A stretch of DNA of 64,000 nt from Kutzneria kofuensis (GTDB taxonomy: Bacteria > Actinomycetota > Actinomycetes > Mycobacteriales > Pseudonocardiaceae). The position numbers were made by a program, and so were the translations under genes. The stretch covers positions 4,652,038 to 4,716,037 of the forward strand of contig NZ_JACHIR010000001.1 in NCBI RefSeq assembly GCF_014203355.1, read 5' to 3'. A model generated the notes under the pieces. The model was not told the origin of the DNA. It made no database searches and saw nothing but the letters and a program-made list of their open reading frames with translations. Shown in pieces: positions 37,852-54,442 of this stretch (position 1 is its first letter; the number at the start of each line of letters is the position of its first letter).

Positions 37852-38721
37852 ATGTCCACCACGCTCGACGCGCCGCTCCCCTCGTCGGAGCAGATCGCCC
37901 AGGTCCGGGTGCCGACCACCCGTCGGTACCTGATGTGCCCGCCGGAGTACTTCACCGTCGAGTACTCGATCAATCCGTGGATGGACCCCGAGCGTCCGGT
38001 GGACACCCGGGTGGCCGTCGAGCAGTGGACCGCGCTCAAGGAGACGTACGAGGGGCTGGGTCACAAGGTCGAGCTCATCGACCCCGAGCCGGGGCTGCCG
38101 GACATGGTGTTCGCCGCCAACTCCGGCACCGTCATCGACGGCGTCGTGCTCGGCTCCCGGTTCCGGGCCGAGCAGCGGGCCGCCGAGGCCGACCACTTCC
38201 GGCGGTGGTTCCTGCGCAACGGCTACCGCGACGTCGTCATGCCCACCTGCGTCAACGAGGCCGAGGGCGACTTCGCGTGGACCGGCCGGGTGTTGTTGGC
38301 CGGCACCGGGTTCCGCACCGACCCCGGCGCCCACGCCGAGGCCCAGGAGGTGCTCGGCGTTCCCGTCGTGTCGCTGCGCCTCGTCGACCCTCGCTACTAC
38401 CACCTCGACACCGCGCTGTTCGTGCTCGACGACCGGTCCGCCCGGCCCGAGGTCTGCTACTACCCCGACGCCTTCTCCGCCGGTTCGCAGCGGGTGCTTC
38501 GCCACCTCTTCCCCGACGCCGTCATCGCCACCGCCGCCGACGCCGAGTGTCTTGGCCTCAACGGCGTGTCCGACGGCCACAACGTCGTGCTGCCGGTTGA
38601 GGCCACCGACCTCGGCGACCGCCTGGCCGCCCGTGGCTACCAGCCCGTCTACGTCGACATCTCCGAGCTCCGCAAGTCCGGCGGCGGCCCCAAGTGCTGC
38701 ACCATGGAACTCCGGGACTGA
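37852..38721 (+). CDS. ddaH: Dimethylargininase / arginine-deiminase-fold hydrolase, 3' end formed by attL
   Basis: 289-aa amidinotransferase-fold enzyme that hydrolyses methylated arginine (or a close guanidino substrate) to citrulline. Visible motifs are PDMVFAANSG, EGDFAWTGRVLL with the acidic catalytic residue, YHLDTALFVLDD with the catalytic His, NGVSDGHNVVLP, and the C-terminal GGGPKCCTMELRD where Cys282 is the likely nucleophile by alignment with bacterial DDAH. ATG 37852 is the family start. The final eight codons and stop lie in the attachment repeat of the integrated element, which keeps the enzyme intact. Its former downstream neighbour is the PPOX gene now at 54489. Confidence 0.9.
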   Translation: MSTTLDAPLPSSEQIAQVRVPTTRRYLMCPPEYFTVEYSINPWMDPERPVDTRVAVEQWTALKETYEGLGHKVELIDPEPGLPDMVFAANSGTVIDGVVLGSRFRAEQRAAEADHFRRWFLRNGYRDVVMPTCVNEAEGDFAWTGRVLLAGTGFRTDPGAHAEAQEVLGVPVVSLRLVDPRYYHLDTALFVLDDRSARPEVCYYPDAFSAGSQRVLRHLFPDAVIATAADAECLGLNGVSDGHNVVLPVEATDLGDRLAARGYQPVYVDISELRKSGGGPKCCTMELRD

Positions 38722-38731
38722 CCGGCGACTT
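38696..38731 (+). repeat. attL: left attachment-site repeat
   Basis: 36 bases identical to 54407-54442 except one position (A at 38709, G at 54420). It starts at the second base of the Cys282 codon of ddaH, covers CTMELRD, the stop codon and ten bases beyond. The mismatch is the synonymous Glu codon GAA versus GAG. Confidence 0.92.
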
Positions 38732-39114
38732 TCCAGCCTCGCAGGTCCGTTCGCTAAACAGCCGCTGAACTGCTAGAACGGCCGCGCCGTGCGGTGGTCG
38801 GCTGTGCCACTGTCTGCCGCCGATTGCCGGGTTTTGCCGGTGGTCGCGGAACATACACGGAACAGAAAGGCCCCCGGCGAAGATCATCGCCGGGGGCCTC
38901 AGTATCCAGTCTACCTGCCGAAACATGCCTTGTGCATGGAGCCAGCTGATTGGTCGACCGGTAGCAGCTTGGACCTGCCCTTCGGGGCCACATTCCCCAC
39001 GTCGAACACCCCGGTCAGGGCTGGCCGTACGTGGTCTGCTGATCTGACCTGGACCGATTACCCCGCTACGTTGTGTCTAAGCGGATGGGACATGGCGGGA
39101 GTTAGGCTCATTGC
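38732..39114. other. Left end of the element, no gene
   Basis: 383 bases between attL and the first cargo gene. No convincing reading frame. The only clear structure is the hairpin at 38868-38899. Integrase arm-binding sites would be expected here but I cannot identify them by eye. Confidence 0.5.
38868..38899 (+). terminator. Hairpin terminator at the left end of the element
   Basis: Perfect 13-bp stem AGGCCCCCGGCGA with its complement and a six-base loop. It can stop transcription leaving ddaH, whose own terminator was separated by the insertion, before it enters the element. Confidence 0.75.
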
Positions 39115-40665
39115 ATGAAGCAGCCTGGTGATGTCCCAAATTTTGCGAATGTGATACTTCCTTCGTGGGTGTGGAATTCAAACCCTCGAGGATATTTTTC
39201 GGAGGCTGCGTTTGTTGGCAGTAAAGCCAGCTTTGACGAGAACGGTTGGACCGTGTTCGCGAAAGAGAGGGTCGACCCTTCGTTCCCTCCCCTTGTGAAT
39301 GCTTTTGACATTGCCGAAAGTGGTATGGTGTCGAGATATGAATTTCTGTCTGCCTTGGCGGGAACTGAGACCATTGAAATGTCGTCAGCGACTCGCGAAG
39401 TAGGCGAGCGTGAACTAGAGAAGAAAAGACTCCGCGCTGAAAGAGTGGGTGATTTGGTTGACACTCTATCGTACTGGCAGCTCAGTGTTATGCTTGCATC
39501 GCGGGAAACTCTAGCTGATGTATGTCGCGACATTTACGGCAAGTTGCTTGAGATACCGCTTGAGGCGAGCCCTGGCGAGGTGGCTTTTCCTAATGCGTCT
39601 CTGCATGTTATATCAAAAAACCCTGCTCTCGGCTACAGGTTGGAGCTGATCGCATTTCTGCTGCGCGCGCGGTACGATTATGATGCACGGAAAGGGGATG
39701 TATCCCACCTTCACGAGGCGATCAAAAACGGTGAGCTGATCTTTGATAGTTCGAGAGGGTTGAGTGATGGAATAGCGCTGTTTGACGTCTATGTTGGTCC
39801 TCTGGTGGGCGCGCTAACGCCTGCGGTATGGTCGATAGTCGCTTTGCGGCCATCTGGCGTGATCTTTTATTCGCTTGGCCGCCTTGTTCGAGGGTTTCGG
39901 TCGGACCCTGCCGAGCTTATGCACATGCTACCAGTTCGAGGGAGCGTTGAGACGGTTCCCTTTCCCGTGCTGGGGGACGGTGCTGCTAGGGCGGCCATTC
40001 AGTGGTGGACTGAACGAATCGGTAAGCTGCTGTCGATAATCTCGGATCCCGCTGTCTTTACTGATCGTAACGGAATGTATGTGGCGACTAAGCATCTACA
40101 TGCTGCCCTGACGGTGGAGCAACTCTTCCGGCGGGTTACCTCGATACAAGTTGCGCATAGAGATGCTAACGCTCGCCGCGTCCTTTTCTTCTCGGTCCTT
40201 GACACAATAGACCGTCTGACCGGTCATGATATTGAATATACATGCTCGCTTGCAAACGCCAGGCGGGCATACGAAAGAGTTGAGGGTGCTATTCCGTCAG
40301 CTTCTGCGGAGATTTTACTACCTGCCGCTCGACGTGCTATTGACGCTCTGGAAGAACTTCAGCAAGGGTTCTTTATTGCGAGGCAGGCCGGTTCTGGTGA
40401 TGTAGTATTTAAGGATGACAAAGGAAAAAATGTTCGTAAGAGTCTAGATGCCGCTACGGCCTCGTACGTCAAGTTGCTGCGAGATGCAACTCATGGTCAC
40501 GGCGCAAAGTTTGTCAACAAAAAAACTCAAACCAACGCGCTACTTGCGCATCATAATGGGAGTATTCCGTATGATATTGTGCTGCTATCCTATCTCTACC
40601 TTCTGGAGTTTCTGGTCGATCTCGATAAGCAGAGAAAGCGATTCTTTGACGGTGGTCGCATCTAA
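39115..40665 (+). CDS. Cargo protein of unknown function, HEPN-like Rx5H motif
   Basis: 516-aa soluble protein, not recognised. The gene is visibly AT-richer than its surroundings and uses many A/T-ending codons rare in the window, so it was acquired separately. The first 100 residues are mixed alpha/beta; residues about 95-120 are a charged helix. Most of the rest is helical. Near the C-terminus LLRDATHGHGAKF gives R-x5-H with Asp after the Arg, the form of HEPN ribonuclease motifs, followed by LLAHHNGSIPYD and a hydrophobic helix. It sits beside attL, a usual place for defence cargo. ATG 39115, weak GGGAG upstream. An abortive-infection role is inference only. Confidence 0.7.
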   Translation: MKQPGDVPNFANVILPSWVWNSNPRGYFSEAAFVGSKASFDENGWTVFAKERVDPSFPPLVNAFDIAESGMVSRYEFLSALAGTETIEMSSATREVGERELEKKRLRAERVGDLVDTLSYWQLSVMLASRETLADVCRDIYGKLLEIPLEASPGEVAFPNASLHVISKNPALGYRLELIAFLLRARYDYDARKGDVSHLHEAIKNGELIFDSSRGLSDGIALFDVYVGPLVGALTPAVWSIVALRPSGVIFYSLGRLVRGFRSDPAELMHMLPVRGSVETVPFPVLGDGAARAAIQWWTERIGKLLSIISDPAVFTDRNGMYVATKHLHAALTVEQLFRRVTSIQVAHRDANARRVLFFSVLDTIDRLTGHDIEYTCSLANARRAYERVEGAIPSASAEILLPAARRAIDALEELQQGFFIARQAGSGDVVFKDDKGKNVRKSLDAATASYVKLLRDATHGHGAKFVNKKTQTNALLAHHNGSIPYDIVLLSYLYLLEFLVDLDKQRKRFFDGGRI

Positions 40666-40696
40666 GTAGCTGGTTGGTCTTGGAGCTACGGTGCGT

Positions 40697-42085
40697 TTAC
40701 TCAGGATCCAGCATGCTGGTGATCTTGCTGTTGGAGAGCGCCCGTTGGCCGTCGAGGCACTTCGCGTAGACCTTCAGTAGGACGTCGACCGTGTGTCCCG
40801 CGCGCTCTGCGACCTCAGCCGCCGGTACGCCGGCCGCCAACCAGGTTGACACCGCCGCGTGCCGCAGGTCGTACGGATCGGCGGCAAGCGGGGAGTCGTA
40901 CTGCTCCGGCGACAGCCCGATCTTGCGTGCCTTGTCCCAGGCGTCGGTGTAGACCGTCGCGTTGACCGGGCCGCCGCTGACCGATCCGCGGAACAGCCGT
41001 CCGTCCTCCGTCGTGCCGAAGGTCCGGAGGTGCCAGCGGAGGATGTCAACCAGTTGCGGAGGTATCGGGACCCGCCGCACAGCTCCTTGCGCCCGCCGCT
41101 TGAGGTTCCGTTCCTCCCAGGTTTCTCCCGAGTCTGTGTAGCGCGCATTCGACCGTGAAGCCGACTTTTCCAAGATGATCTCGCCCCACTCGTCGACCTG
41201 GCCCTCGTCGGGGAGCCTCAGGTCCGCCTTGCGGATCCGGTTCACCTCGCACGGACGAAGACCCGCGTAGTACATGGCCCCGAAGAAGCCGTACAGGTAC
41301 TCACGACGACCGGCATACGTCACCGCTGCGAGCACCTGCGGAGCCTGCTTCGGATTCAGTACGACGCGAGGGTCGACCTCGCTGCTTCCGACGTGTGTCG
41401 CGACTTTCGACCGGGTGACCGGGTTGGCGTCCAACTCCTCGACGTCGATCGCGAACTCCATCAAGTGGTGCAGCACTCCGCGCCGCGTGCGTGTTGTCCA
41501 CGACGCAGCAGCTGTGCCGTTCAGGTTGCGGCCGAGCGCGCGAAGCACGTTGCCTATCTCGACTTTCTTTGCCAGGTCCGACACCGGACGAGACGCTGAC
41601 ACCACCCACTCGGCAGTCCGCGCTTCGTCGTCCGTGAGTTGCCGGTCCCGGCGATTGGTCGGCAGCAAGTGCGTCGTGAGCACCCGCCGCAGCTTCCGCC
41701 CATCCGGTACCGATCCGTCACGCTTCACGAACGCGGCGACGGCAACCGCGAGCGTGTCGACATACCGCTTCCGCGTGTTCGGAGCCGACTCGTTCCACTC
41801 CTCATCGATGAACTCCTGAGCGAGCTTGAGCAGTGATCTCGGCTCCCGCTGCGGCCACTCCGACTCCGGCAACCCGGTCGCAATGTCGAATGCCTCGCCA
41901 CGCTTCGCCGCCTGAAGAAGCTCCGACCGCCGGCTGTCGGCGAGCTTGATCGTCTTGTACCACTCGGAATGTTCTTCACCTGCGGTTACCCAACGCACGC
42001 CGTACGGCTTGGGGCGCTTCTTGCCGTCCGCAGTCGGCTTCAGAGTCTTGATCGCCCACACGTTGACCTTGTACGTGGTTTTCAT
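40697..42085 (-). CDS. int: AICE tyrosine integrase
   Basis: 462-aa site-specific tyrosine recombinase that integrates and excises the element at the ddaH attachment site. N-terminal arm/core-binding region, then catalytic residues Arg277 (AGLRPCE), Arg408 in YDLRHAAVSTW (Tyr replaces the first His of HxxR, usual in actinomycete integrases), His431 (ERAGH) and the nucleophile Tyr440 (KVYAKCLDG). The C-terminus is intact. It is the last gene of the minus-strand repSA-xis-int unit and overlaps xis by four bases; it lies about 2 kb from attL with one cargo gene between. Confidence 0.95.
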   Translation of the reverse strand: MKTTYKVNVWAIKTLKPTADGKKRPKPYGVRWVTAGEEHSEWYKTIKLADSRRSELLQAAKRGEAFDIATGLPESEWPQREPRSLLKLAQEFIDEEWNESAPNTRKRYVDTLAVAVAAFVKRDGSVPDGRKLRRVLTTHLLPTNRRDRQLTDDEARTAEWVVSASRPVSDLAKKVEIGNVLRALGRNLNGTAAASWTTRTRRGVLHHLMEFAIDVEELDANPVTRSKVATHVGSSEVDPRVVLNPKQAPQVLAAVTYAGRREYLYGFFGAMYYAGLRPCEVNRIRKADLRLPDEGQVDEWGEIILEKSASRSNARYTDSGETWEERNLKRRAQGAVRRVPIPPQLVDILRWHLRTFGTTEDGRLFRGSVSGGPVNATVYTDAWDKARKIGLSPEQYDSPLAADPYDLRHAAVSTWLAAGVPAAEVAERAGHTVDVLLKVYAKCLDGQRALSNSKITSMLDPE

Positions 42086-42288
42086 GCGGCATCACTCCGC
42101 CGCCCGTCGAGCCACATCAGATAGTCAGCGACCAGGATGCGGAGTGATCCGTTCGGCAGCTTCCGGGCGACAGGTGCGGCACCTGGAATCTGTCGCCACT
42201 TGTAGAAAGTGTTCTTGGAGACCCGCGCCGCCGCGCAGAACTCGTCGACCGTGAGCAGTTGGTTCGGGTCCGGCAGAGCGGAAGTCAC
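42082..42288 (-). CDS. xis: Excisionase (helix-turn-helix)
   Basis: 68-aa MerR-like DNA-binding protein: LLTVDEFCAAARVSKNTFYKWRQ forms the helix-turn-helix and GSLRILVADYLMWLDG the wing. It would bend DNA at the attachment sites and steer Int towards excision. Four-base overlaps with repSA upstream and int downstream show a tightly coupled operon, as in pSAM2. Confidence 0.9.
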   Translation of the reverse strand: MTSALPDPNQLLTVDEFCAAARVSKNTFYKWRQIPGAAPVARKLPNGSLRILVADYLMWLDGRRSDAA

Positions 42289-43625
42289 GATGCCTCCTTC
42301 TTCGTGCGTCGGGTGTTCTTGATCCGTTCGGCGATGCCGTGCGCAAGTTCCATTTCTGCGTCGTTGGCGTAGCCGATGCCGGCGAAATCCCAGCGGTTGA
42401 CGACGACCACGGAGTCCGGATCGACGCCGAGGCGCTCAAGCGCCTGCTCAGCCCGAAACGCCGCGCGCTCTCCGCGAATCGCCTTGAACGTCGTGCTGTA
42501 GTGCTTCGACTTCGTCAGGAAGTGCCCCCGGAAGCCGAGCATGTGCGCCCACTTCCGCAGGTTCAGCTCGTCGTACTCGGCCAGGCCGCCGAGGTCCCAG
42601 CACGTTTGGATGATCCGGCGATGGTGTGGCGTGACGTCGAGGTGATCGATGTCGACTTGTCCACGAATCGGCCGGTCCGCGGCTTCGCTCTTTCCGGTGC
42701 CCTTGGTGGCGTATTTCGCCACGTAGGCCGCCAAGCGCTCCTCGGAGATCTCGCCCCGCTCGTCCTCGACCTCCGCCGCAGCAGTCGGCCGAATCTGGCG
42801 GACGTCGACCTGCCGACCCCACACCAGGCTCAGCGCCGCACCGTCAGGCCGGCTGATGTCGAGCTGGACCGCGCCGGCCGCCGCGACGATCGCATCGGTC
42901 AGCAGCTCCGCCGTCGCCCACGCCGGTGTCTGATCGCTCGGTCCGCCTGCTCCGTCGACGCGGACCATCGCGTGGAAGTGGACCAGGCCGCGCCGCTGGT
43001 ACTCGGCGACCTTGGCGTACGACAGGCGGGCGTGGTCGGTGAACTCGCGGACCGTGATGCCGGCCGCCTGCGCGAGCTTGCGGCGCAACGCGATGGTGAA
43101 CCGGTGCCACAGCTTGCCCGCGTGCGCCTGCCACAGCACCGCGCCCACGTAGTCGTAGGTGTCGACATCCAGTGGCGCCCCGACCCGGGGGTCCGCCTGG
43201 TGGTGGCGTTCCCCGCACGCACAGGGGATTGTCCGGCCGCGCGCCGAGGTCCGCCGGTTGTGCACCGGTCCGAAGGAGGGAGCCGTCAGCGTCGCGAACA
43301 CCCGAGGCTTCTCGGCGACCGTCACCGGAACGCCCTTGTCGCCTCCGGACAGTCCCGCCCGCATCAGGTGGAAGGCGTCGGCCGCGTACCGGTCCGAACA
43401 GGTGGGGCAGACCGACTCCCGCCGGTTGCCGCACGGGGCGAAGATGTGCCCGGACCGTTCGGCCAGGACCTCGCCGGCCTGGTCCTGAACCTGCCATGCG
43501 CCCGACATTCGTACCGGGTGCAGGCAGCCGCCGACTCGCTCGACCTTGGCCCGCCATGCCTGGAAGTCAACGGCCTGGACACGACGAGCGATCCGCTCGT
43601 CCAGAGACAACGGGGTCACAGTCAC
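42285..43625 (-). CDS. repSA: Rolling-circle replication initiator RepSA
   Basis: 446-aa replication initiator of the pSAM2 RepSA family, which nicks the double-strand origin of the excised circle. A zinc-finger-like CGNRRESVCPTC and CACGERHH precede the HUH motif HFHAMVRVDG (motif 2); AAYVAKYATKGTGK near residue 300 contains the Tyr/Lys motif 3. I choose GTG at 43625, which has AAGGGGG six bases upstream; the frame extends further to 43673 through a terminator hairpin and is unlikely to be translated there. Confidence 0.9.
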   Translation of the reverse strand: MTVTPLSLDERIARRVQAVDFQAWRAKVERVGGCLHPVRMSGAWQVQDQAGEVLAERSGHIFAPCGNRRESVCPTCSDRYAADAFHLMRAGLSGGDKGVPVTVAEKPRVFATLTAPSFGPVHNRRTSARGRTIPCACGERHHQADPRVGAPLDVDTYDYVGAVLWQAHAGKLWHRFTIALRRKLAQAAGITVREFTDHARLSYAKVAEYQRRGLVHFHAMVRVDGAGGPSDQTPAWATAELLTDAIVAAAGAVQLDISRPDGAALSLVWGRQVDVRQIRPTAAAEVEDERGEISEERLAAYVAKYATKGTGKSEAADRPIRGQVDIDHLDVTPHHRRIIQTCWDLGGLAEYDELNLRKWAHMLGFRGHFLTKSKHYSTTFKAIRGERAAFRAEQALERLGVDPDSVVVVNRWDFAGIGYANDAEMELAHGIAERIKNTRRTKKEAS

Positions 43626-43652
43626 AACAGCCCCCTTGATCAACTTTATTTG

Positions 43653-43696
43653 GGCAAAAAAGGGGCCAGGCACGACGTTTCTGCCGTGCCTGGCCC
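43653..43696 (-). terminator. Terminator/attenuator directly upstream of repSA
   Basis: On the minus strand a perfect 12-bp stem (43685-43696 with 43663-43674) is followed at once by CCTTTTTT, a classic intrinsic terminator. It lies after the DUF2637 gene and 28-40 bases before the repSA start, so replication genes are shielded from transcription of the transfer genes unless it is read through. Confidence 0.8.
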
Positions 43697-43699
43697 TGA

Positions 43700-44311
43700 T
43701 TACTGCGCCGTCAGCGACGCGAGAATCTGGCTTGCCATCCCGTCCGAGACGTTGGCCGCCCGCTGCACATCTGCGATGGTCGGCTCTCGCCCTTCAGACC
43801 GGGCAGCCGCGACGGCCGAGGTGACCTTGGCTGCCATCGGTGCTGGTAGACGAAGCCGTGACGGTGGCGAGGTCACCGCGGACTTGTCCTCGACGGCCGC
43901 CGGCTCAGGCTCAACCCGTGGTGCTGTCGGTTCGTGCGGCAGCCGCCGCATGAGCAGCTTGACCACGGTCAGGAACCCCAGCGCTGGCATCGCTGCCAAC
44001 AGCCAGCCCGCCGGAGTCGGCTCGGCCTCAGCGACCTGGGCGAACATCTGCACCAGGAACCCCGCCACCAGCACCGCGACCGGGAGCGAGAACCGAGCCC
44101 GCCGGTCGGTCTGCCGGTCCCGGTGGATCTCGAACGCCGCCACGACCGAGATGCCCTCGATCACCACGGCATCCGCCCACGCCAGCCACCCGGTTTGGCC
44201 GTGGTGCGCCGCCCAGTCGTGGGTGTGGGTGAAGCCGGCCGCCGCGCCGATCAGCCCGAGCACGGCGGCCACGGTGAGCCGGATCCCGGTTGCTACCTTG
44301 TCGACCGACAC
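43700..44311 (-). CDS. DUF2637 membrane protein (SpdB-like)
   Basis: 203 aa with four predicted transmembrane helices in the first 125 residues, starting VATGIRLTVAAVLGLIG, and a conserved WLAWADAVVIEGISVVAAFEI helix typical of DUF2637/SpdB proteins that assist intramycelial spread of AICEs. The C-terminal 75 residues are cytoplasmic and look like a DNA-binding or adaptor tail (TSAVAAARSEGREPTIADVQRAANVSD). GTG start at 44311. Its role in spreading is inferred from family and context. Confidence 0.8.
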   Translation of the reverse strand: MSVDKVATGIRLTVAAVLGLIGAAAGFTHTHDWAAHHGQTGWLAWADAVVIEGISVVAAFEIHRDRQTDRRARFSLPVAVLVAGFLVQMFAQVAEAEPTPAGWLLAAMPALGFLTVVKLLMRRLPHEPTAPRVEPEPAAVEDKSAVTSPPSRLRLPAPMAAKVTSAVAAARSEGREPTIADVQRAANVSDGMASQILASLTAQ

Positions 44312-44765: not shown

Positions 44766-46310
44766 TCACGCGACGGCATCTGTCTGACCGGCAGCCGGCA
44801 GCGCGAGAACCTGCCCGCGCGCCGTGACGTACTGCTCCAACTCCTTGATCGAGGGGTCGGAGTTCCAGCCGATCCGGACGCGCATCGGTTCCCGGACGCC
44901 TTCCCCGAACACGTAGCCGACGCCCTTGCCCTGCGGCGTCTGCGGAATCCGATGTGCCCAGGCCCCGCGCTTGACGGCGTCATCGCCGAGGACCATGTCG
45001 ACCTGCTGTTCGGTCGGCACCCGCAGGCACAGCCGCCGCGTGAAAAGGTCCCGGAACGCCACGGTGTCCTTGGCGGGGTCTTGCACGTATCCGCGAAGGC
45101 ACACGCCCAGCGCGGCCGCCTGCGTCAGCAGCAGCCCGACCCGCTGATCGAGCTTGGCCTTGACCTGGGAGCCGGCGTACTTCGACAACGCCGCGATTTC
45201 GTCGAACTCGACCATGTGCAGCGGCTGCTCACGCGAGATGGTGACCTTGCGCGCCTTGCCCCGCAGCTCAGCCTTGCGAGCATTGGCGATGTCGATCAGG
45301 TGGTCGAGCAGTTCGAGGGCGCCGGCCGCCGTGTCGGTGTAGGTGGCGAACACCGTGCGCCCGTAGGCCAGCTCAACGCCCTTGGGGTCGATCGCGTGCG
45401 CCACGACCAGGCCGTCACGCAGCGCCGGAGCGACCGAGCGCAGAACCTGCCAGGTGAACGAGTTCTTGCCCGCCCGCGACTCCGCGCCCACCAACCAGTG
45501 GCAGGCCAGAAGCGGCACATGCCAGGGCCGGGAGTACTCGCTCAGCCCCGCGTAGACCCGTTCCAGGTCAACATCGGTGCCGGCAGCGTCGACGTCCAAC
45601 TTGCCGCAGTCGACCAGCGAGGCCAGCACATCGCGTCGTTGGAAGTCCAGTGACACCGTCGACGGCCCGAGCTGCCGCACCAGGCACCGATCCGCACCGC
45701 GAGCGACCGCCAGCGCCCGCGTGGACTGCTCGACGTCCTCCACGGTCAACCCGGGCACCAGGCGGACGATCACCTCGTCCCACGACGGCCCCGACCGCAC
45801 CGCCTTGATCGACGGCAGCCCCAGCTCAGCCTGATTCTCTCCACGGGCATAGACCGCCAACCCGCAGGAGCGGACCCAGTTCTTCCATCGCGGCTGGTAG
45901 ACCGTCCACCGCAGCCACCAGGACCGCAGCCGCCGGCCGATGAAGCGCTCGAAGGTGGTCACGTGTTCGTGCCACCAGACGACACAGCCCAACGCAGCCG
46001 TGACCAGGGCAATCACCAGCGGCACCCACCCAACCAGCGAGACCAGATAGGCCACCGCGAGCACGCCGACCGTGGTCCGCCAGAACCGCCGGACCGTCGA
46101 CAGCACCCACCACACGGCCACGCCCAAGCCCTTGATTGCCTTGCACAGCAGGAAAATCACGGCGGCGATCTCCAGCACGGCCGCAAGGATCTTCCCGAGC
46201 CACCGCATCACGAAGAACGCCACGGCACCCGCAGCGACCACGCCGAGGACCAGCAGGACATCTCCCGCCGATCCGGGGGTCGCGCTGGACGCGGCCAGCA
46301 CGATGCCCAT
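44766..46310 (-). CDS. traSA: FtsK/SpoIIIE-type DNA translocase TraSA
   Basis: 514-aa conjugal transfer ATPase. Four to five hydrophobic helices in the first 115 residues anchor it to the membrane; the motor domain follows with Walker A GAESRAGKNSF (about residues 275-285) and a Walker-B-like LHMVEFDEIAAL. The C-terminal part (GVGYVFGEGVREPMRVRIGW) is typical of TraSA/TraB proteins that pump double-stranded plasmid DNA between hyphae after recognising a clt sequence. ATG at 46310. Confidence 0.93.
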   Translation of the reverse strand: MGIVLAASSATPGSAGDVLLVLGVVAAGAVAFFVMRWLGKILAAVLEIAAVIFLLCKAIKGLGVAVWWVLSTVRRFWRTTVGVLAVAYLVSLVGWVPLVIALVTAALGCVVWWHEHVTTFERFIGRRLRSWWLRWTVYQPRWKNWVRSCGLAVYARGENQAELGLPSIKAVRSGPSWDEVIVRLVPGLTVEDVEQSTRALAVARGADRCLVRQLGPSTVSLDFQRRDVLASLVDCGKLDVDAAGTDVDLERVYAGLSEYSRPWHVPLLACHWLVGAESRAGKNSFTWQVLRSVAPALRDGLVVAHAIDPKGVELAYGRTVFATYTDTAAGALELLDHLIDIANARKAELRGKARKVTISREQPLHMVEFDEIAALSKYAGSQVKAKLDQRVGLLLTQAAALGVCLRGYVQDPAKDTVAFRDLFTRRLCLRVPTEQQVDMVLGDDAVKRGAWAHRIPQTPQGKGVGYVFGEGVREPMRVRIGWNSDPSIKELEQYVTARGQVLALPAAGQTDAVA

Positions 46311-47103: not shown

Positions 47104-47160
47104 TGCAACCTCTGGTCCGATCGGGTGATATGTATCTCTGCTAGCTATGGCGGTACAGTC

Positions 47161-47565
47161 ATGACCATGACCTTGGACCCGACCGACCGGCGACCGGCGT
47201 ACCAACAGATCGCTGACGATCTCCGCCAGTTCATCGCGTCGGACGCGGTGGGGATCAACGACAAGCTTCCGTCGCTCACCGAGCTGACCGAGAAGTACGG
47301 CCGTGCCGTGATGACCATCCGCAAGGCGCTCGACAGCTTGCAGGATGAGGGCCTGGTCGTGACGCGCCACGGTGAGGGCACCTACGTCGTACAGAAGCCA
47401 GCAGCTCACGCTGAGCCGGTGACGACCCCGCGTGAGCTGCTGGACAGTTTCCGTCGTATGAGCGAATCGTTGGCCGAGATCACCGACCGTCTTGCGGCCG
47501 TCGAGTCGGCGGTGTTCGGTCAGTCAGGCCCAGGTGCTCCTCGACGCGATCAAGGCGACGACTGA
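47161..47565 (+). CDS. korSA: GntR family repressor (KorSA)
   Basis: 134-aa protein: N-terminal winged helix domain of the GntR type (RRPAYQQIADDLRQFIAS, LPSLTELTEKYGRAVMTIRKALDSLQDEGLVVTRHGEGTYV) and a short helical C-terminus without a large effector domain. This form and its position opposite the transfer genes match KorSA, which keeps pSAM2-type elements silent in the chromosome. ATG 47161 fits the family N-terminus; a second in-frame ATG is two codons later. Confidence 0.88.
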   Translation: MTMTLDPTDRRPAYQQIADDLRQFIASDAVGINDKLPSLTELTEKYGRAVMTIRKALDSLQDEGLVVTRHGEGTYVVQKPAAHAEPVTTPRELLDSFRRMSESLAEITDRLAAVESAVFGQSGPGAPRRDQGDD

Positions 47566-47694: not shown

Positions 47695-48219
47695 CTAGCT
47701 CGCCCTGCCGACCATCAAGCTGTCGCCGCGACGCTGCTGGCCCTGCGCGATGCTCCGCTCCCAATCAGCCCCCTGCTTGAACTTCTTGGTTAGCGCTTCG
47801 AGCACGGCCAGGCGCGCGGCATACCAGTGCGCCTTCTCGTCGACGAGCTCCGGCTCAGCGCCGAGCCCTGACAGCAGACCGGCCAGTTCAGCTGGTCCGA
47901 GCGCCTTCGCGGCGTGACGGCCAGCCACCAGGTCTGGCCTGTTGTCCTTGAGCTGCCGACGCACCGCTTTCGCTTCGACGCTGTACAGCTCGGCCATCGC
48001 CACGCAGGCAGCAGCCAGCGCGAAGTGCAGCGCAGCCTTGTTCAACACCCAACCGACACGCGTGGCTATCGAGGCGACGCCGTCGGGGCGCCGGGCCTCG
48101 CAGAGCTTTGCCACAAGTTCCAACAACTCACGGCGGTGTTTGGACGTCTTCAGCTCGTCCGGCAAGCCAGCAGCTCGCACCTCCACGGCACGATTGCGAA
48201 CTGTGCTTGTGTGCGGCAT
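47695..48219 (-). CDS. Hypothetical AICE protein
   Basis: 174-aa mostly helical, basic protein with no recognised domain. Central segment RVGWVLNKAALHFALAAACVAMAELYSVEAKAV is a long amphipathic to hydrophobic helix pair, not a clear membrane span. ATG 48219 is preceded by GGAGATCTAGAG. It lies downstream of two small genes on the same strand. Confidence 0.6.
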   Translation of the reverse strand: MPHTSTVRNRAVEVRAAGLPDELKTSKHRRELLELVAKLCEARRPDGVASIATRVGWVLNKAALHFALAAACVAMAELYSVEAKAVRRQLKDNRPDLVAGRHAAKALGPAELAGLLSGLGAEPELVDEKAHWYAARLAVLEALTKKFKQGADWERSIAQGQQRRGDSLMVGRAS

Positions 48220-48265
48220 CTCTAGATCTCCTTGTGGAATGGCACGAGCCGAAGCAGATCGGCCA

Positions 48266-48502
48266 TCAGCCCTCGCCCCGCTTGACGAGCCAGGTGACGT
48301 GTTTCGCCATCAACGGCAGGAGTCGAGCAACAAGCCGCGCCGCGACGTCCCGGGCCAACACCAGGTTCAACTGGTCGGCCCCATCGCCGAACCTCACCGT
48401 CACGTGGAACTCACTGACGTCCGTCACCGTCACCGGAACCTGTGACCACCCGACCTCTGCCACCATCGGCTTGCCGTCTTTCTCGCGGCACAGCACCAGC
48501 AT
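48266..48502 (-). CDS. Small hypothetical AICE protein
   Basis: 78-aa protein (MLVLCREKDGKPMVAEVGW, TVRFGDGADQLNLVLARDVAARLV), beta-rich first half and helical end. Its ATG overlaps the stop of the upstream gene, so the two are co-translated. Function unknown. Confidence 0.6.
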   Translation of the reverse strand: MLVLCREKDGKPMVAEVGWSQVPVTVTDVSEFHVTVRFGDGADQLNLVLARDVAARLVARLLPLMAKHVTWLVKRGEG

Positions 48503-48732
48503 CAGGACACCCCCTTCCCGGTCTCCGCCGCCGCAAGGCCGGCACGGCCCTGTCGAATGGCCTCCTCCAGGTGGTCCAAGGCCCGACGGTCGATGATCAA
48601 GGCAACCGGGAACGCCTTGCCGAGCTTGATCTCGACCCGATCCGCGAACGGCAACGCGTTGGCCCGCATCGGCAGGTCCGCCGTCAGGTGGACGTGCACC
48701 AGGTCGCGCATCTCGCCGTCCTGCCCGGTCAC
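48502..48732 (-). CDS. Small hypothetical AICE protein
   Basis: 76-aa protein starting at GTG 48732 (MTGQDGEMRDLVHVHLTADL, VEIKLGKAFPVALIIDRRALDHLEEAIRQGR). First gene of a small minus-strand unit running into the 78-aa and perhaps the 174-aa genes. Function unknown. Confidence 0.58.
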   Translation of the reverse strand: MTGQDGEMRDLVHVHLTADLPMRANALPFADRVEIKLGKAFPVALIIDRRALDHLEEAIRQGRAGLAAAETGKGVS

Positions 48733-48920
48733 GCGTTCGCAATGGACAGGAAGGCCGCGGATCGGCCCCTCTCGTTCCGGCTCCCAGATGAAGTGGTCAT
48801 CGCGTCGTCTCCCATCTGCTCGCCGGGTACTCCGGCGTTCGCTTCAAGGTCCACTTTCGGCGGAAAGCCAGGACGTGAGCACCGCCCGACGGGATTTCTG
48901 AGGACGTCCTGCTAGCCTCA

Positions 48921-48940
48921 AGTCGTCCCTACTTGTCCCT
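48921..48940. promoter_or_regulatory. Tandem TCCCT motif before the XRE gene
   Basis: CGTCCCT and TGTCCCT occur ten bases apart just before the ribosome-binding site of the XRE/DUF5919 gene. A repeated half-site here could be the binding site of that regulator; weak evidence. Confidence 0.25.
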
Positions 48941-48949
48941 GGAGCCGAG

Positions 48950-49693
48950 ATGGCAAACGAGCGCCTACGCGATGCTCTGCTGCGCAACGGGCTGACGCCG
49001 GAGCAGGTAGCGAATGGCATCGGGGTCGATCCGAAGACCGTCGAGCGCTGGATCACCAAGGGACGAACGCCGTACGCGAAGCATCGGCACGCCATCGCGG
49101 CGTTGGTCCGCGAAGCCGAGAACTACCTCTGGCCGAACGCCGTCGCGCCCGAGCGGGCGACGGAGATCGGCGGCTCCGAGGTCATCAAGGTCTATCCCCA
49201 CCGCAACTCGGTCCCGCGCGAGCTGTGGTCGCGGCTGATCGACAACGCCGCCGAAGAGGTTGAGGTGCTGGTCTACGTGGGGATGTTCCTCACCGAGGAC
49301 CGCAACCTGATCAAGATCTTTCGGGAGAAGGCACAGGCCGGCGCGCGGATCCGCCTGTTGTTCGGCGACCCGGCCAGCCGAGAAGTCGCCCGCCGCAGCA
49401 CGGAGGAGGGGATCGGCAAGAACGCCATCGCGGCCAAGATCGGCCAGGCCCTCGCGTTCTTCCGACCGCTCGACGGCGTGCCCGGCATCGACATCCGGTG
49501 CCACGGCACCACGCTCTACAACTCGCTCTACCGGTTCGACGACGAGATGATCGTCAACCCGCACATCTACGGATTCCAGGCCGCCCACGCGCCTGCCCTC
49601 CACCTGCGCCGGCTGTCAGCGGGCGACCTGTTCGACTCCTACTCGGAGAGCTTCGAGACCGTGTGGAAGGCAGCCAAGCCGCCCAAGTGGTAG
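48950..49693 (+). CDS. XRE regulator with DUF5919 (PLD-like) C-terminal domain
   Basis: 247 aa. Residues 1-50 form a Cro/XRE helix-turn-helix (LRDALLRNGLTPEQVANGIGVDPKTVERWITKG). The rest, with VEVLVYVGMFLTEDRNLIKIFREKAQAGARIRLLFGDP, is the DUF5919 domain that resembles phospholipase-D-like folds but lacks an obvious HKD motif. The gene is found beside NUDIX and HD genes in many streptomycete AICEs, as here. ATG 48950 with GGAG six bases upstream. It probably regulates element maintenance. Confidence 0.85.
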   Translation: MANERLRDALLRNGLTPEQVANGIGVDPKTVERWITKGRTPYAKHRHAIAALVREAENYLWPNAVAPERATEIGGSEVIKVYPHRNSVPRELWSRLIDNAAEEVEVLVYVGMFLTEDRNLIKIFREKAQAGARIRLLFGDPASREVARRSTEEGIGKNAIAAKIGQALAFFRPLDGVPGIDIRCHGTTLYNSLYRFDDEMIVNPHIYGFQAAHAPALHLRRLSAGDLFDSYSESFETVWKAAKPPKW

Positions 49694-49702
49694 GCAAGAC
49701 CT

Positions 49703-50173
49703 GTGCCGAAGAGGGACTACCTGGACGACCCTGCCGCGCCGAAGGCGAACAGCATCGTCCCCGCCGCAAGCGCTTTCGTGCAGGACGAGGCCGGCCGTGT
49801 GCTGATGATCCGGCGGACCGACAACGACCTCTGGGCCATCCCCGGCGGCGGCCAGGACGTGGGGGAGACCATCGCCCAGACCGCCGTCCGGGAAACCCTC
49901 GAAGAGACCGGCATCGACATCGAGATCACGGGTTTGGTCGGCATCTACTCGAACCCCGCACACGTCATCAGCTACGACGACGGCGAGGTCCGGCAGGAGT
50001 TCTCCGTCTGCTTCCGCGCCCGCCCGGTCGGAGGCGAGCCTCAAACGAGCAGCGAGTCCCGCGAAGTTCATTGGGTCGAGCCGGCCGACCTGGACGACCT
50101 GAACATCCACCCGTCCGTCCGGCTCCGCATCGACCACGGGCTAACCGGATCGGCCGCCCCGTACTACGACTGA
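49703..50173 (+). CDS. NUDIX hydrolase (Pif-like)
   Basis: 156-aa protein with an intact Nudix box, G-x5-E-x7-REx-L-EE-x-G, inside PGGGQDVGETIAQTAVRETLEETG. In pSAM2 the Nudix protein Pif gives recipient-level immunity that stops transfer into cells already holding the element, and this gene has the matching context. GTG start at 49703, nine bases after the XRE gene, hence one operon. Ends with a 10-base convergent overlap with the HD gene. Substrate unknown. Confidence 0.87.
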   Translation: MPKRDYLDDPAAPKANSIVPAASAFVQDEAGRVLMIRRTDNDLWAIPGGGQDVGETIAQTAVRETLEETGIDIEITGLVGIYSNPAHVISYDDGEVRQEFSVCFRARPVGGEPQTSSESREVHWVEPADLDDLNIHPSVRLRIDHGLTGSAAPYYD

Positions 50174-50730
50174 CCGAGCCCCGCGGCTTTCAGCCGTTCG
50201 TTCGTGCGCTCGACCGCGCCCAGCAGCTCCGGCCACGCCCAGCGGATGAAGCACGACACCAGATCTTCCGGTCCGTAGCGCTGCTGAATCTCCGCGACCC
50301 GGTCCGTGATCGTCGTACGCGTGCCGTCCGGCGTCGTCGTCATGTCCGCCCACCACAGCGCGTCCCGCAACGGCGTCTTCTCGTCCTCAAACTTCGCCAG
50401 CTCCGCCGACAGCCCACGTAGCTCCGCCTCAAGCACCGCGCAGGAGTGATGCGCCACCAGGTGTACCAGCCGATCCGGTGCGTTGATCGCCCTCAGGTAC
50501 CGCGCCCCGTCGAGCGGGTGAAACCGGGTCTCGGCGATGTTCGGCGCATAGCCCACGTCGTGCAACACAGCCGCCGCAACCACCAGCTCGCCGTCATCCC
50601 CAAACAGGGCAGCTGATCGACGTGCCTGTTCAGCGACGCCTTGGACGTGAGCCCATCGTCTCGGCAAGGGCGCCTGAAGCAGACCCTGCGCCACCTTGTA
50701 CGCCCACGCCACCAGCTCCACGGCGATCAT
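50164..50730 (-). CDS. HD domain protein
   Basis: About 188-aa metal-dependent phosphohydrolase-like protein: RRWAHVQGVAEQAR provides the first His, LHDVGYAPN the HD pair, and HLVAHHS a further His. Common third member of the XRE-NUDIX-HD cassette in AICEs. The start is uncertain: ATG 50730 has AGG immediately before it; GTG 50721 has AGGAT at a better distance. The substrate (nucleotide or other phosphoester) is unknown. Confidence 0.82.
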   Translation of the reverse strand: MIAVELVAWAYKVAQGLLQAPLPRRWAHVQGVAEQARRSAALFGDDGELVVAAAVLHDVGYAPNIAETRFHPLDGARYLRAINAPDRLVHLVAHHSCAVLEAELRGLSAELAKFEDEKTPLRDALWWADMTTTPDGTRTTITDRVAEIQQRYGPEDLVSCFIRWAWPELLGAVERTNERLKAAGLGQS

Positions 50731-50830
50731 CCTAGAAGTCGCTGCTGTGGCCCCGTGTTCACAGTTTCTTCTCTTCATCAAGGCGCGCCGCCGGCGGCGG
50801 CGCGCTGGTCACCTTGGCAGCTCATGGCGT

Positions 50831-50904
50831 GGCCGCAAGCCCGGAAGGGCGCGCGACGGGGCCCCTGCCTTCGGCGGCCCCGCGCGACCCTTCCGGCCGC
50901 GGCC
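50831..50904. repeat. 74-bp GC-rich imperfect dyad
   Basis: Arms of about 31 bases (outer GGCCGC, inner CCGGAAGGG then GCGCG and GGGGCC, matched by GGCCCCGCGCG, CCCTTCCGG, GCGGCC) around an 11-base loop with a TTCG tetraloop-like centre. It lies alone in the 300-base gap between the HD gene and dam. Candidates are a single-strand origin or sti-like locus, clt, or a strong terminator. Confidence 0.6.
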
Positions 50905-51088
50905 AACCGGTGCGCACGTTCGCCGGCCGCCGATAGCAAGAGCTTCAGTCCTATCCATCGAAGAACAGCGGTCTGCAGTCGCCACACGCCCAGATGATCA
51001 CCCGTTAGCACCAGCTACGGCGCAACACAGCACTTCATTAACCCTGGAGATCAATTTAACTTAAGCCCAATAGGATCGTCACCGCGAA

Positions 51089-52012
51089 TCAAGCTTCTAC
51101 GGCTAGTCGCAACTGATTGGCCTTCGCCCTGGAGATTCCCGCAGGCGATGCAACCTGTGGAATCATTAGGTTCTCCGAAAAGAACATAACTTCGGCGCCG
51201 CTAGCAACAGTCGAAGCGCTATATCCCAGCGAGTAGCGTATGTTAGGATACCCATTATAAAGCGAAAGAATCTCAGGTGCGGCGTCGTAGGACACGATCC
51301 AGCGTGTTTCCAAGCGTTTGATGAGGTCGCAAATCTTTACGTGATCATCATGCTGATAGAAGTTATCGTAGAGACGGGCGCCTTTTACGTAGTAAGGTGG
51401 ATCAAGATATAGCAACCTGGTGTACTTGCTGTCACTGTCGACGTCGCGCAGGAGTTTGGCCGCGTCTTTTCTAGTGACAGAGATACGGCTCTTATAGCTC
51501 GCTATTTTACGCACTCGCTCACACAGTGCATCTCGATTGAACCTGGCGTCGATCTTCCAGTTGCCCTGCTGATTGAGGCCGCCAATTACGCCGCCGCGCG
51601 TGATAATTCCTGATCGATTCGTCCTATTTAGAAAGAAAGTAGCGAACCCCAAGTCCTCGGGAGAGGACTTGGGGTTCTCGTACGTTTCCTTTTGTTGTCG
51701 CCACTCGTCGACGTCTAGCTTGACCGCTTGAATTCGGTCGCACAGCTTTTCTGCGTCAGTCAGTGCCAGCTTCCAGAAAGCGTGCACTCCCTTATTTAGA
51801 TCGTTGATGCGGATCCTATCGGCATAGCCGTCGAAAAGTAGGGCGAGAGCCACACTTGCGCCTCCGGCATATGGCTCGATGTACTCAACATTCGAAAGCG
51901 AGTTATGTGAGATGAGAAGCTTGAGGAAATTGCTAACTTTAGCCTTGCCTCCAGGGTAGCGCAATGGCGACGGGTAGCGTTCCTGCGTCTCCGCAAGCTT
52001 CACCTTTTTCAC
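51089..52012 (-). CDS. Dam-type DNA adenine N6-methyltransferase
   Basis: 307-aa methyltransferase of the D12/Dam class: RYPGGKAK (residues 18-25), SAM motif I EPYAGGASVAL (46-56), NRTNRSGI (129-136) and catalytic DPPY (204-207) are all intact. It would methylate adenine in a short target. The gene is AT-richer than the element core and overlaps the ParB-like gene by four bases (GTGA), so the two proteins are made together. GTG start. An orphan, regulatory or self-protecting role in a two-gene module are all possible. Confidence 0.88.
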   Translation of the reverse strand: MKKVKLAETQERYPSPLRYPGGKAKVSNFLKLLISHNSLSNVEYIEPYAGGASVALALLFDGYADRIRINDLNKGVHAFWKLALTDAEKLCDRIQAVKLDVDEWRQQKETYENPKSSPEDLGFATFFLNRTNRSGIITRGGVIGGLNQQGNWKIDARFNRDALCERVRKIASYKSRISVTRKDAAKLLRDVDSDSKYTRLLYLDPPYYVKGARLYDNFYQHDDHVKICDLIKRLETRWIVSYDAAPEILSLYNGYPNIRYSLGYSASTVASGAEVMFFSENLMIPQVASPAGISRAKANQLRLAVEA

Positions 52013-53550
52013 CTAACCCAAATCTGCTGGATGAACGGCTGCAACTCGTCCCAGCAAGTGCGAATTTCTGACGGCCTCGGGAAAACGTAAGGATTATGAA
52101 CGTACTGATTCAACGTTGTAGTGGAAATGGAGAACGGACTCTTGCCCTCCGTCACCTTGATCACCGACTTTTCGAGCTGCTCACCGATCTTCCCTGCAGT
52201 GCGCATATGTTCAGCGGCCGACTTCATTCGCTTCGCGAGCGCAGTGTTACGCCGTTCATCTTCGGTCATCACGCTCTCGCGGATCAAGTACTCATCAACG
52301 CTCAACTCGACAAAGACGCGGAGTAGTACCGCGCATGCGTTTGCATACTCCTCGACATCAAGCTTGAGCAATTCGTGGTATATTCCCTTAATCCGCGCGT
52401 TGGTGACCTTGAGATTGCACGTCCGTGGAATTGTGAACGACCGCGGCCTCGAAATTCGCGCGCTACCCGGCGTAGTGTTCGAAGGGGTAGGATTCGCTGG
52501 GGTCGACTTTTCTGTCCCATCCGTTTCCTTGGGGCGAACCAGGCTTCCATTGCTGCCCGAAGCGCCCTTCGTTACGTCTACGGTGGATCCCACGGCAGGG
52601 CCAGAGACGTCAGGCCCACTCGCAGGGCTCGAACCGTCGACGGTCGCGCCCGATTTAACGCTGGGCTCTTCTGCAGTTGAAACCTCAGCTACCACAGAGA
52701 GTTCATTTAGAGCTATAGCCTCAGGTAGCCGTGTGCTCGGATCTGGTAGATCGATTGGCAAAAAATCGTCGATGTACTTACTTCGATCATCCTCGTAGTA
52801 CACGTCGGTTACCTTTATGTCACCCGTACGAAGATCGTTGACGATCTTGCGTAGTCCCTTGTAAATCTCGGGGCCAGGGTAGGATGAATAAAGAACTCCA
52901 CGCCTCAGCTCGAGTCCGAGGGCGTCCCGAACGGTCCTCGTTGAAATTAGGCGCTGGAGCGTCGTGATGATCTTGTTTGTTCCGGCAACGGCAGGTGCTA
53001 CCCGGTCAACGAAATCTATAACCTGACCGGCAGGTGCCCGCTTTGCGTCAGATCCATGACGACTCTTAAACCGGTCCTTCTCGTCGGCGCCCCACTCGAC
53101 AAGACCTGTGCCATTGTTTGCTCCCGTATGCCTACGCTCAATCCAAGGCCAGGCGTCATCCTCTGTTGCAAATAGCACGCACGTGACTGAATTGATGGGC
53201 GACTCCAGGAAGCGCTCGGACAGGCCGCGCAGTTTCCGCAGCTTTGCAGGTGGCAGCGCCCCGTCGACGATGCGGGGGTCATGCAGTGCCTTAAGCGCCA
53301 GCGTGCGCCGATTCCCTTCCAACACCTTGTAGTGGTTGGCAACTTCGGGATCGGCCACAACAGCGGGAACTGTGAGCGGGTCCAGTCCGCGCTCAACGAT
53401 GTCTTCCGCTAGTGCTACGACATGATCCCCCGCAACACGTGCAAGTGCGCGGTATGTAGATTCCTGGTCAGGCTGAATTTCGGTCAGTCGAGAATTTGCC
53501 TGATCGAGCAGAAGCTTAGACACGCTGATCCTCTTTGTTGGCAAATCCAT
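52009..53550 (-). CDS. ParB-like N-terminal domain protein with helical C-terminal domain
   Basis: 513 aa. The N-terminal 90 residues form a ParB/sulfiredoxin-like nuclease domain with VLEGNRRTLALKAL (GNRR at 79-82). Residues 120-265 continue with WPWIERRHTG and GVLYSSYPGPEIYKGLRKIV. Residues about 290-375 are a Ser/Pro/Thr-rich linker. The C-terminal 135 residues (GIYHELLKLDVEEY, CAVLLRVFVELSVDEYLI, LNQYVHNPYVFPRPSE) form a helical HEPN-like domain. Pairing with Dam suggests a restriction- or partition-like system in which this is the effector; not demonstrated. ATG 53550. Confidence 0.78.
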   Translation of the reverse strand: MDLPTKRISVSKLLLDQANSRLTEIQPDQESTYRALARVAGDHVVALAEDIVERGLDPLTVPAVVADPEVANHYKVLEGNRRTLALKALHDPRIVDGALPPAKLRKLRGLSERFLESPINSVTCVLFATEDDAWPWIERRHTGANNGTGLVEWGADEKDRFKSRHGSDAKRAPAGQVIDFVDRVAPAVAGTNKIITTLQRLISTRTVRDALGLELRRGVLYSSYPGPEIYKGLRKIVNDLRTGDIKVTDVYYEDDRSKYIDDFLPIDLPDPSTRLPEAIALNELSVVAEVSTAEEPSVKSGATVDGSSPASGPDVSGPAVGSTVDVTKGASGSNGSLVRPKETDGTEKSTPANPTPSNTTPGSARISRPRSFTIPRTCNLKVTNARIKGIYHELLKLDVEEYANACAVLLRVFVELSVDEYLIRESVMTEDERRNTALAKRMKSAAEHMRTAGKIGEQLEKSVIKVTEGKSPFSISTTTLNQYVHNPYVFPRPSEIRTCWDELQPFIQQIWVR

Positions 53551-53807
53551 AACCTGACCTGGCCCCTCCGCTACTCTCGTGGCTACTTGCCGGCGGCTAG
53601 CCTACCGCATTGCATGCCGAAAGCACATTCAAAATGCAGAGCCCCCGGCTGCCCTCCTACCTCCCTCGCCCACACGATGGGCATGCGAAGTCGGTCGAGA
53701 CGCGGGACAGAGGTACCTCTCACCTAGGCGCAATCAAGCATCCAAACGGCCGTCTTTCACCTGTTTGTGCTGGTAGTGACTCGGTGCGGCAACGGATGGG
53801 CTTGCGC

Positions 53808-53835
53808 TCCTAGCGCCTGCATGCAGGTACTAGGA
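53808..53835. repeat. 28-bp near-perfect palindrome
   Basis: TCCTAG-CG-CCTGCATGCAGG-TA-CTAGGA: the arms pair throughout except two positions. The inner 12 bases are a perfect palindrome. It may bind a dimeric or tetrameric protein such as KorSA, Xis or the ParB-like protein. Confidence 0.5.
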
Positions 53836-54112
53836 CTCGGAACTACGGTCAAGCATCTGCACCAACTCGAGATGCTGGAGCCGCTGATCCGTAGCCTGGA
53901 CACGACTGCGAGCATCGAAGGCGACACCCCAGGTAGTGGGCGAGTTGCAAGTCGGCCTCCAGTGCACCTGTTTGCACTCCAACTGGCCCTAGGCAGGGTA
54001 TTACCAGCGCAAATGCCGCAGGCTGCCAGCGTTGGGGAAGTCCTCGCCGGACGGGCAGGCCAACAGGATGGATGCGGACTGCGGCAGGCTGCGGTTCGGG
54101 AGCGGCCTTGAC

Positions 54113-54248
54113 CGCGCCATCCCGTCGACCTCCCGGAGGGCAATCACACGCATCAAGGGGGCGCTCCCAGCCGGAGCCGGTAGTCCTGCCCGCATGTGCC
54201 CCCTTGACACGCGTGATCGGGCGTTGCCAGGTCGACGGGATGGCGCGA
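54113..54248. repeat. 136-bp imperfect inverted repeat next to attR
   Basis: Arms of about 49 bases: CGCGCCATCCCGTCGACCT and, further in, ATCA-CGC and TCAAGGGGG on the left (54113-54161) pair with CCCCCTTGA, GCGTGAT and AGGTCGACGGGATGGCGCG on the right (54199-54248), with a 37-base centre. No coding potential. Candidate single-strand origin, transfer locus or structured RNA. Confidence 0.6.
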
Positions 54249-54249
54249 G

Positions 54250-54314
54250 GCCACTCCCTTGTGGTCGGGAAGCCAGGCGCGGCCGACGTCGATCGCCGCC
54301 GGTAGGGGAGTGGC
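54250..54314. repeat. Second inverted repeat beside attR
   Basis: GCCACTCCC (about 54250) and GGGAGTGGC (ending 54314) form nine-base arms around a 47-base spacer, immediately after the larger dyad. Confidence 0.4.
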
Positions 54315-54406
54315 AGCGCGGAACATGTGCGGAATACGACCCGGCGCGCAATCCCGCAGGGTGGTAAAAATGCAGGTCAGGGCCCTGAGTCGTTAGATCA
54401 GCAAGG

Positions 54407-54442
54407 GCTGCACCATGGAGCTCCGGGACTGACCGGCGACTT
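54407..54442 (+). repeat. attR: right attachment-site repeat
   Basis: Second copy of the 36-bp repeat. It is the original 3' end of ddaH, still reading CTMELRD and stop, now separated from the rest of the gene by the element. Chromosomal sequence resumes with the PPOX gene. Confidence 0.92.

Follow-up and report, generated by a model that had tools for sequence, protein, structure and literature searches.

Elements that sit at the 3′ end of a gene and restore that end are of a known kind; those in guaA, prfC and icd, for example, rebuild the end of a housekeeping gene on integration. Actinomycete integrative and conjugative elements (AICEs) of the pSAM2 type are characterized by RepSA, TraB and KorSA. 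According to the part of the survey of Ghinet et al. (2011, PMC3218068) that was available to us, the vast majority of AICEs with a tyrosine recombinase lie at the 3′ ends of tRNA genes, the pSLS subfamily excepted, and some AICEs with a serine recombinase (Mmar2129, Mav3790 and Srot1958) lie in protein-encoding genes; that part names no ddaH or ligase site. We examined a 64,000-nucleotide stretch of the Kutzneria kofuensis genome, hereafter the window, in which an element spanning 38.7 to 54.4 kb sits at the end of ddaH, the gene for a dimethylargininase. We are highly confident that it is an integrated AICE and that its tyrosine recombinase recognizes the ddaH 3′ end as the attachment site on the chromosome. 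The new aspects are the ddaH site itself, its recurrence, and an integrase clade with functional sequences as targets; a literature search, which covered licensed PMC papers only, found no publication on ddaH as an AICE site.

Compared with the elements in guaA, prfC and icd, the window element involves another gene and another integrase family. It resembles the pSAM2-type AICEs in the gene order int-xis-repSA, with a candidate xis, in its GntR regulator and in its integration with direct repeats. It lies in a protein gene, unlike pSAM2 itself, which occupies a tRNA 3′ end (PMC3218068, same part). With the pSLS subfamily, the non-tRNA exception of that survey, it shares a non-tRNA site, a likeness drawn by description only; a plasmid collection gave five records matching the integrase, with none named pSLS among the matches listed. 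Mmar2129, Mav3790 and Srot1958 likewise occupy protein genes, but they use a serine recombinase and the window element a tyrosine recombinase. A parallel in targeting one protein gene as the site of an integrase family is dusA; however, the dusA elements use the 5′ end of their gene (PMC4482086, in the part available), whereas the ddaH and ligase elements described here use the 3′ end, just past the catalytic codon.

The ddaH attachment site and its recurrence

The element had originally been predicted to end in 36-bp repeats (38696-38731 and 54407-54442). These repeats are real: they are identical at 35 of 36 positions and belong to a 41-nt direct repeat (39/41 identical) that brackets the element. 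When 69 nt from the left junction were used as a query, the two repeat copies were the only matches in the whole 10.4-Mb genome, so a chance origin of the repeat is out of the question. The left 36-mer begins with the second base of the Cys282 codon (38695-38697) and contains the final ddaH codons together with the TGA stop (38719-38721). The claim that this copy restores the last residues and the stop of ddaH is confirmed, as the gene is complete and scores 430 bits against the NCBIfam dimethylargininase profile NF045659 (cut-off 300). In a PDB alignment Cys282 falls on the Cys of the KCLT motif of Sll1336 and Cys283 on its Leu, and we take Cys282 to be the catalytic nucleophile. Past the right copy comes the ATG of a PPOX-family gene, for which PF01243 was matched on the open reading frame 54327-54878. 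Just inside attR lies an inverted repeat (54113-54247; 50-nt arms, 78% complementary, 35-nt loop).

The genus was represented by seven listed genomes including that of the window, so that six congeners were compared (genomes and loci are designated below by G and L numbers). In G002, which is devoid of the element, the ddaH stop is followed after 41 nt by the ATG of a PPOX gene 86% identical to that of the window and then by a polysaccharide deacetylase gene; the 18.8 kb fetched contain a single core copy. The expectation that empty relatives would have ddaH directly before PPOX, with one copy of the repeat, thus holds for G002 but not for the other five congeners: the deacetylase gene stands behind ddaH without PPOX in G001, G005 and G006, and neither gene was found behind ddaH in the stretch read of G003, which reaches a contig end, or of G004.

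We then asked how widespread the site is. The family scan covered 390 genomes with the window integrase as query (E up to 1e-105, best four candidates per genome scored), a design that misses short integrase remnants. Matches were found in 46 genomes and formed two groups, one with at least 57% identity (17 genomes) and one with at most 53%. When the window integrase was compared in this way with others next to ddaH, as the original prediction proposed, 14 of the 17 genomes of the first group had an integrase that adjoins ddaH and points at it: the window itself (G000) and 13 further genomes with the same site (G013, G110, G151, G155, G171, G286, G305, G307, G308, G309, G312, G314 and G427). 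As for the other three, the integrase adjoins an acyl-CoA ligase gene in G158 and G167, and G153 is cut by a contig end. All 11 full-length integrases with at least 60% identity and no inner stop, the window's included, adjoin ddaH; no ddaH was found within the 1.5 kb read in any of the 20 loci examined from the lower group. A named scan of 79 loci gave ten with ddaH at most 3.1 kb from an integrase, each integrase match being of at least 60%, namely in Umezawaea endophytica, Lentzea nigeriaca, L. aerocolonigenes, L. indica, L. terrae, L. kentuckyensis, Lentzea sp. NBRC 102530, L. pudingi, Actinokineospora globicatena and Actinokineospora sp. NBRC 105648; L173, a further locus of L. indica, represents the second copy in its array. 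A clean identity cut is contradicted by two short C-terminal matches of 61-62% near tRNA-Arg (L222 and L228), so identity guides the target only for long matches. Altogether, the idea that the homologues keep to one target is valid for these 11 full-length integrases and fails for a nested branch at a ligase gene and for another at CIRCE-like operators (see below).

In the window's own genome, the only integrase match at E up to 1e-20 is the one next to ddaH. Tandem copies occur in relatives: G305 has two integrases, one of them partial, and three att copies, G314 likewise shows three att copies, and in G013 the remnant of an integrase lies beyond attR. Such arrays point to tandem stacking at a protein gene. 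The sequence behind ddaH was compared over 30 loci (L003-L032). In L016 and L024 (G056 and G034) an arm-like sequence lies behind ddaH (E 2e-11) without a close integrase, and these may be scars of lost elements; L022 showed only matches of 25-41 nt behind ddaH, resembling a terminator hairpin.

The recombination core and competing explanations

To compare elements, positions were counted from the initial G of GCACSATGGA (position 0; 38699 in the window), the second base of the Cys283 codon, which puts the Cys282 codon at −4 to −2. For 9 of the 14 ddaH elements a second att copy could be located, and 11 comparisons between a ddaH end and such a copy were made. In seven of them the identity starts at 0, in two at −2 and in two at −3; the common core runs from base 2 of the Cys283 codon, and its widest extension to the left is to base 2 of the Cys282 codon. 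Rightward, the copies differ for the first time at +10 (window) or later. A pattern scan of the 390 genomes was used for leads only (att pairs in G110, G155 and G171 were among the matches listed). Given these left and right limits, strand exchange most likely lies within 0 to +10, so that the nucleophile codon would stay chromosomal. The predicted start of the repeat within the Cys282 codon is correct for the window, but it represents the widest case and not the rule, since across elements the core starts in the Cys283 codon.

We propose the following scenario. Strand exchange would most likely take place inside the roughly 10 bp (GCACSATGGA) that encode Cys283-Thr-Met-Glu, right after the Cys282 codon. 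The catalytic codon would stay with the chromosome and the element would supply its own last codons and stop, leaving ddaH whole, while the displaced ddaH tail, without the catalytic codon, would be left at attR. The element could be excised with Xis, replicated with RepSA and transferred with a TraB-like translocase. The repeats, the complete ddaH, the gene content, the empty site of a congener, the recurrence in 13 other genomes and the tandem copies are observed; the exchange point, the polarity and the mobility of the element are inferred.

The site was also said to be the most conserved part of ddaH. Conservation was measured in 21-nt segments over the 30 best ddaH loci of the 76 genomes with a match. 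The segment at nt 830-850, encoding GGGPKCC, is the second most conserved (0.960, against 0.968 for nt 403-423), and the segment beginning with the Cys283 codon ranks 424 of 847, which is average. According to these values, the left side of the site is constant and the element-supplied right side is not; the claim is therefore wrong in its superlative, and the exchanged part is only of average conservation.

Several observations speak against the proposed scenario. After a single mismatch, the attL and attR of the window agree over 22 nt more, 10 of them past the stop codon. From the sequence, a 10-bp crossover alone would leave this long identity unexplained, unless the element last left a close relative; an exchange further to the right is possible in the window. 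Moreover, 5 of the 14 elements beside ddaH yielded no attR (for some of them the sequence fetched, or the contig, stops early), and PPOX adjoins ddaH in just one of the six congeners, with the deacetylase in three and neither gene in two. The window integrase is only just above the Pfam cut-off (PF00589, 27.3 versus 27.1 bits). Finally, the TraB candidate gave no direct FtsK match in profile searches, and phmmer against PDB gave nothing for it.

Among the other explanations, the one that survives best, although we consider it unlikely, is that the insertion was real but has become a fixed, immobile island. An accessory gene lies between attL and int, the integrases of the relatives G151, G158, G167 and G171 are broken, and the TraB candidate is divergent, all of which would suit such an island; however, the reading frames of int, the Xis-like gene and RepSA are unbroken, and neither att site is missing. 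Far less probable is that the element captured a 3′ fragment of ddaH and entered by homologous recombination. The window identity past the 10-bp core fits this idea, as do the identity that runs 28 to 31 nt on in G151 and G155 (with one mismatch in G155) and that of G013, which continues behind a 1-nt shift. On the other hand, the left edge is sharp in all 11 comparisons, within 3 nt of the same base and with unrelated sequence beyond, unbroken rightward identity ends after 10 to 17 nt in 7 of the 11, and integrases of one clade are found repeatedly at this spot and in one orientation. The least credible alternative, namely that the true target is a tRNA gene, either the tRNA-Tyr gene some 7.9 kb beyond attR or another one, with ddaH as a secondary site, could be drawn from integrases of 39-42% identity at tRNA-Tyr a few kb from ddaH in eight fetched loci (chosen for an integrase near ddaH) and from L222 (134 residues) and L228 (82 residues), 0.2 and 2.8 kb from tRNA-Arg, but it can practically be dismissed, as the four of those eight that are in our integrase tree (G001, G011, G019 and G040) form a separate branch (100/100), the integrase matches of at least 57% in the family scan, from 17 genomes of which one is cut by a contig end, include none at a tRNA gene, and the single integrase match of the own genome is at ddaH.

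No tRNA gene, the usual AICE site, was found at either end of the element, the only one in the window being that tRNA-Tyr gene (62320-62401). As a separate observation, made on the window and L065-L076, a tRNA-Tyr gene follows downstream of ddaH in 12 of the 14 neighbourhoods fetched (exceptions: L063/L064 and L081). In eight of them, chosen for an integrase near ddaH, an integrase is located at tRNA-Tyr, which places two AICE sites side by side.

Integrase targets outside ddaH

In a tree of 68 integrases, the fork with all ddaH integrases is supported at 100/100, and the ddaH group lies inside a supported set of 34 rows (100/98) made up of 15 ddaH, 12 ligase and 7 then-unlabelled rows. Sixteen of the 68 rows had no target label when the tree was built; later, five were placed at CIRCE-like sites and one at DUF3039. 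No tRNA target was found among the members of the 34-row clade; the neighbouring set of 17 rows contains 9 at tRNA genes and 8 without a target label. An Rfam search of 14 loci with then-unlabelled targets returned nothing.

A single clade of all 12 ligase rows was rejected (p-AU 2e-43) because G158 and G167 nest among the ddaH integrases. Four ligase proteins were scanned, and all proved to be AMP-binding enzymes that have an AMP-binding_C domain. Both att copies are available for five elements at one ligase type (G126, G158, G167, G335 and G348), and their identity starts at 0 (three pairs) or −3 (two pairs), the codon for the Lys of the GK motif, presumably the catalytic residue, being at −4 to −2. 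The register common to the ddaH and ligase families rests on anchors chosen from where identity starts; for the other two ligase types (L108, L110 and L131) the evidence is adjacency of the integrase only. A DNA motif common to the ddaH and ligase cores (12/15 bases) was set aside as suggestive only, the ddaH 15-mer having been picked by eye; matches of 12/15 to it occur at 5e-5 of positions, and its alignment is shifted by 3 nt relative to the catalytic codon.

Three other genomes (G103, G182 and G247) carry at a repeat the palindrome GCACTC-N9-GAGTGC, an operator-like sequence that resembles CIRCE. It is adjoined by groES in G103 and G182 (Cpn10 was confirmed for G103), and G247, through record L177, shows the repeat twice together with tsaD. 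A similar palindrome in G059 and G021 precedes another small gene (zinc-ribbon, FmdB-like by eye) and not groES. Beside groES, att sites lie in the CIRCE-like operator at 6343-6397 and 17532-17586 of L238 and near 13956 of L237, and both operator halves stay on the groES side. In G023 (L078/L239), an AICE occupies the 3′ end of a gene for a DUF3039 protein, where the site coincides with the final Cys of a CPEC motif; the body of that gene is found next to the element end that is distal to int. The remaining row of the seven, G153, is the one cut off by a contig end.

The integrase lineage appears to have swapped tRNA genes for functionally constrained codons and operators. On balance we favour a scenario in which one AICE integrase clade left tRNA genes and keeps re-targeting to functionally constrained DNA, namely the 3′ ends of ddaH and of AMP-binding ligase genes, DUF3039 and CIRCE-like operators. 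In the ddaH and ligase cases the core would begin one codon past the catalytic residue, the host keeping this residue and the element supplying the tail, and the ligase target would have arisen repeatedly, or have been lost and then acquired anew. Related integrases with different, well-defined targets in protein genes and operators form a natural series, which makes the change of integrase target directly testable. They also point to non-tRNA landing sites, such as the 3′ ends of ddaH and ligase genes, for actinobacterial integration vectors.

Genes of the element

The region from 38.7 to 54.4 kb is an AICE: it contains genes for a tyrosine integrase, for Xis-like, RepSA and Tra-like proteins and for a GntR regulator, as well as a PD-Lambda-5 pair (Table 1).

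Table 1. Features of the ddaH element and its flanks (window coordinates)
Feature	Position	Strand	Basis
ddaH (dimethylargininase), target gene, 3′ end restored at attL	37852..38721	+	NF045659, 430 bits; codon positions read
attL; recombination core common to compared elements starts at 38699 (GCACCATGGA)	38691..38731	+	direct repeat; 11 att comparisons
Element-side arm next to attL, candidate integrase arm-binding region (putative role)	38809..38934	+	blastn of post-stop tails
Low-GC accessory gene, 516 aa, between attL and int	39115..40665	+	GC 0.54-0.55
Tyrosine recombinase (integrase), 462 aa, points at ddaH	40697..42085	-	PF00589, 27.3 bits (cut-off 27.1); tree
Xis-like small HTH protein, overlaps int	42082..42288	-	HTH_17, E 1.7e-4, 22.2 bits (under cut-off 27)
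RepSA-type replication initiator (pSAM2 family)	42285..43673	-	PF20199, 516 bits, E 9e-155
DUF2637 protein, candidate spread protein (putative role)	43700..44311	-	PF10935, E 1.2e-7
Candidate TraB/FtsK-like DNA translocase	44766..46310	-	45% identical to L078 protein
GntR-family regulator (putatively KorSA-like, by position)	47125..47565	+	PF00392, E 1.8e-17
HTH/DUF5919 protein, common to related AICEs	48950..49693	+	PF19319, E 1.8e-8
Adenine methyltransferase, PD-Lambda-5 B	51089..52012	-	PADLOC PDLC04018, E 3.9e-116
PD-Lambda-5 A	52009..53550	-	PADLOC PDLC04008, E 5.3e-197
attR	54402..54442	+	direct repeat
PPOX-family gene, next chromosomal gene past the element	54489..54878	+	PF01243; directly behind ddaH in congener G002

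The integrase, Xis-like and RepSA genes form one overlapping run on the minus strand. The PF20199 score indicates a predicted replication protein of the AICE type, and the NCBIfam RepSA profile gave 474 bits, under its equivalog cut-off of 700. The Xis-like protein, whose own HTH_17 score is below the cut-off, has matches at the same position in relatives. As for the candidate translocase, its L078 homologue and four other homologues match PF01580 (FtsK_SpoIIIE); one of these five matches is slightly under the cut-off and the other four exceed it. The HTH/DUF5919 protein has matches in L077 (67% identical) and L078 (74%). The arm on the attL side is conserved from one ddaH element to another (with L089, 79% over 126 nt), as would be expected of DNA that belongs to the element.

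The GC content is 0.51-0.59 in two cargo zones versus 0.64-0.69 in the backbone. The 516-aa gene gave no Pfam, NCBIfam or PADLOC match, and 5 of 200 family genomes, the window's included, have a match to it, the four others being 29-48% identical. The PD-Lambda-5 anti-phage pair is low-GC cargo of the element and has A and B side by side, as a PD-Lambda-5 defence system does. When eight accessory open reading frames from three other ddaH elements were submitted to PADLOC, six had no match; in the G110 element one frame had an ATPase-like match, best to NsnB, and another a weak HTH match.

The congener G006 has an AICE, of which only one att copy was seen, adjoining a ligase gene. Its RepSA and DUF2637 proteins are 86% and 75% identical to those of the window, and its integrase only 51%. 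Because a RepSA this similar is combined there with a distant integrase and another target, the AICE backbone seems to travel with different integration modules.

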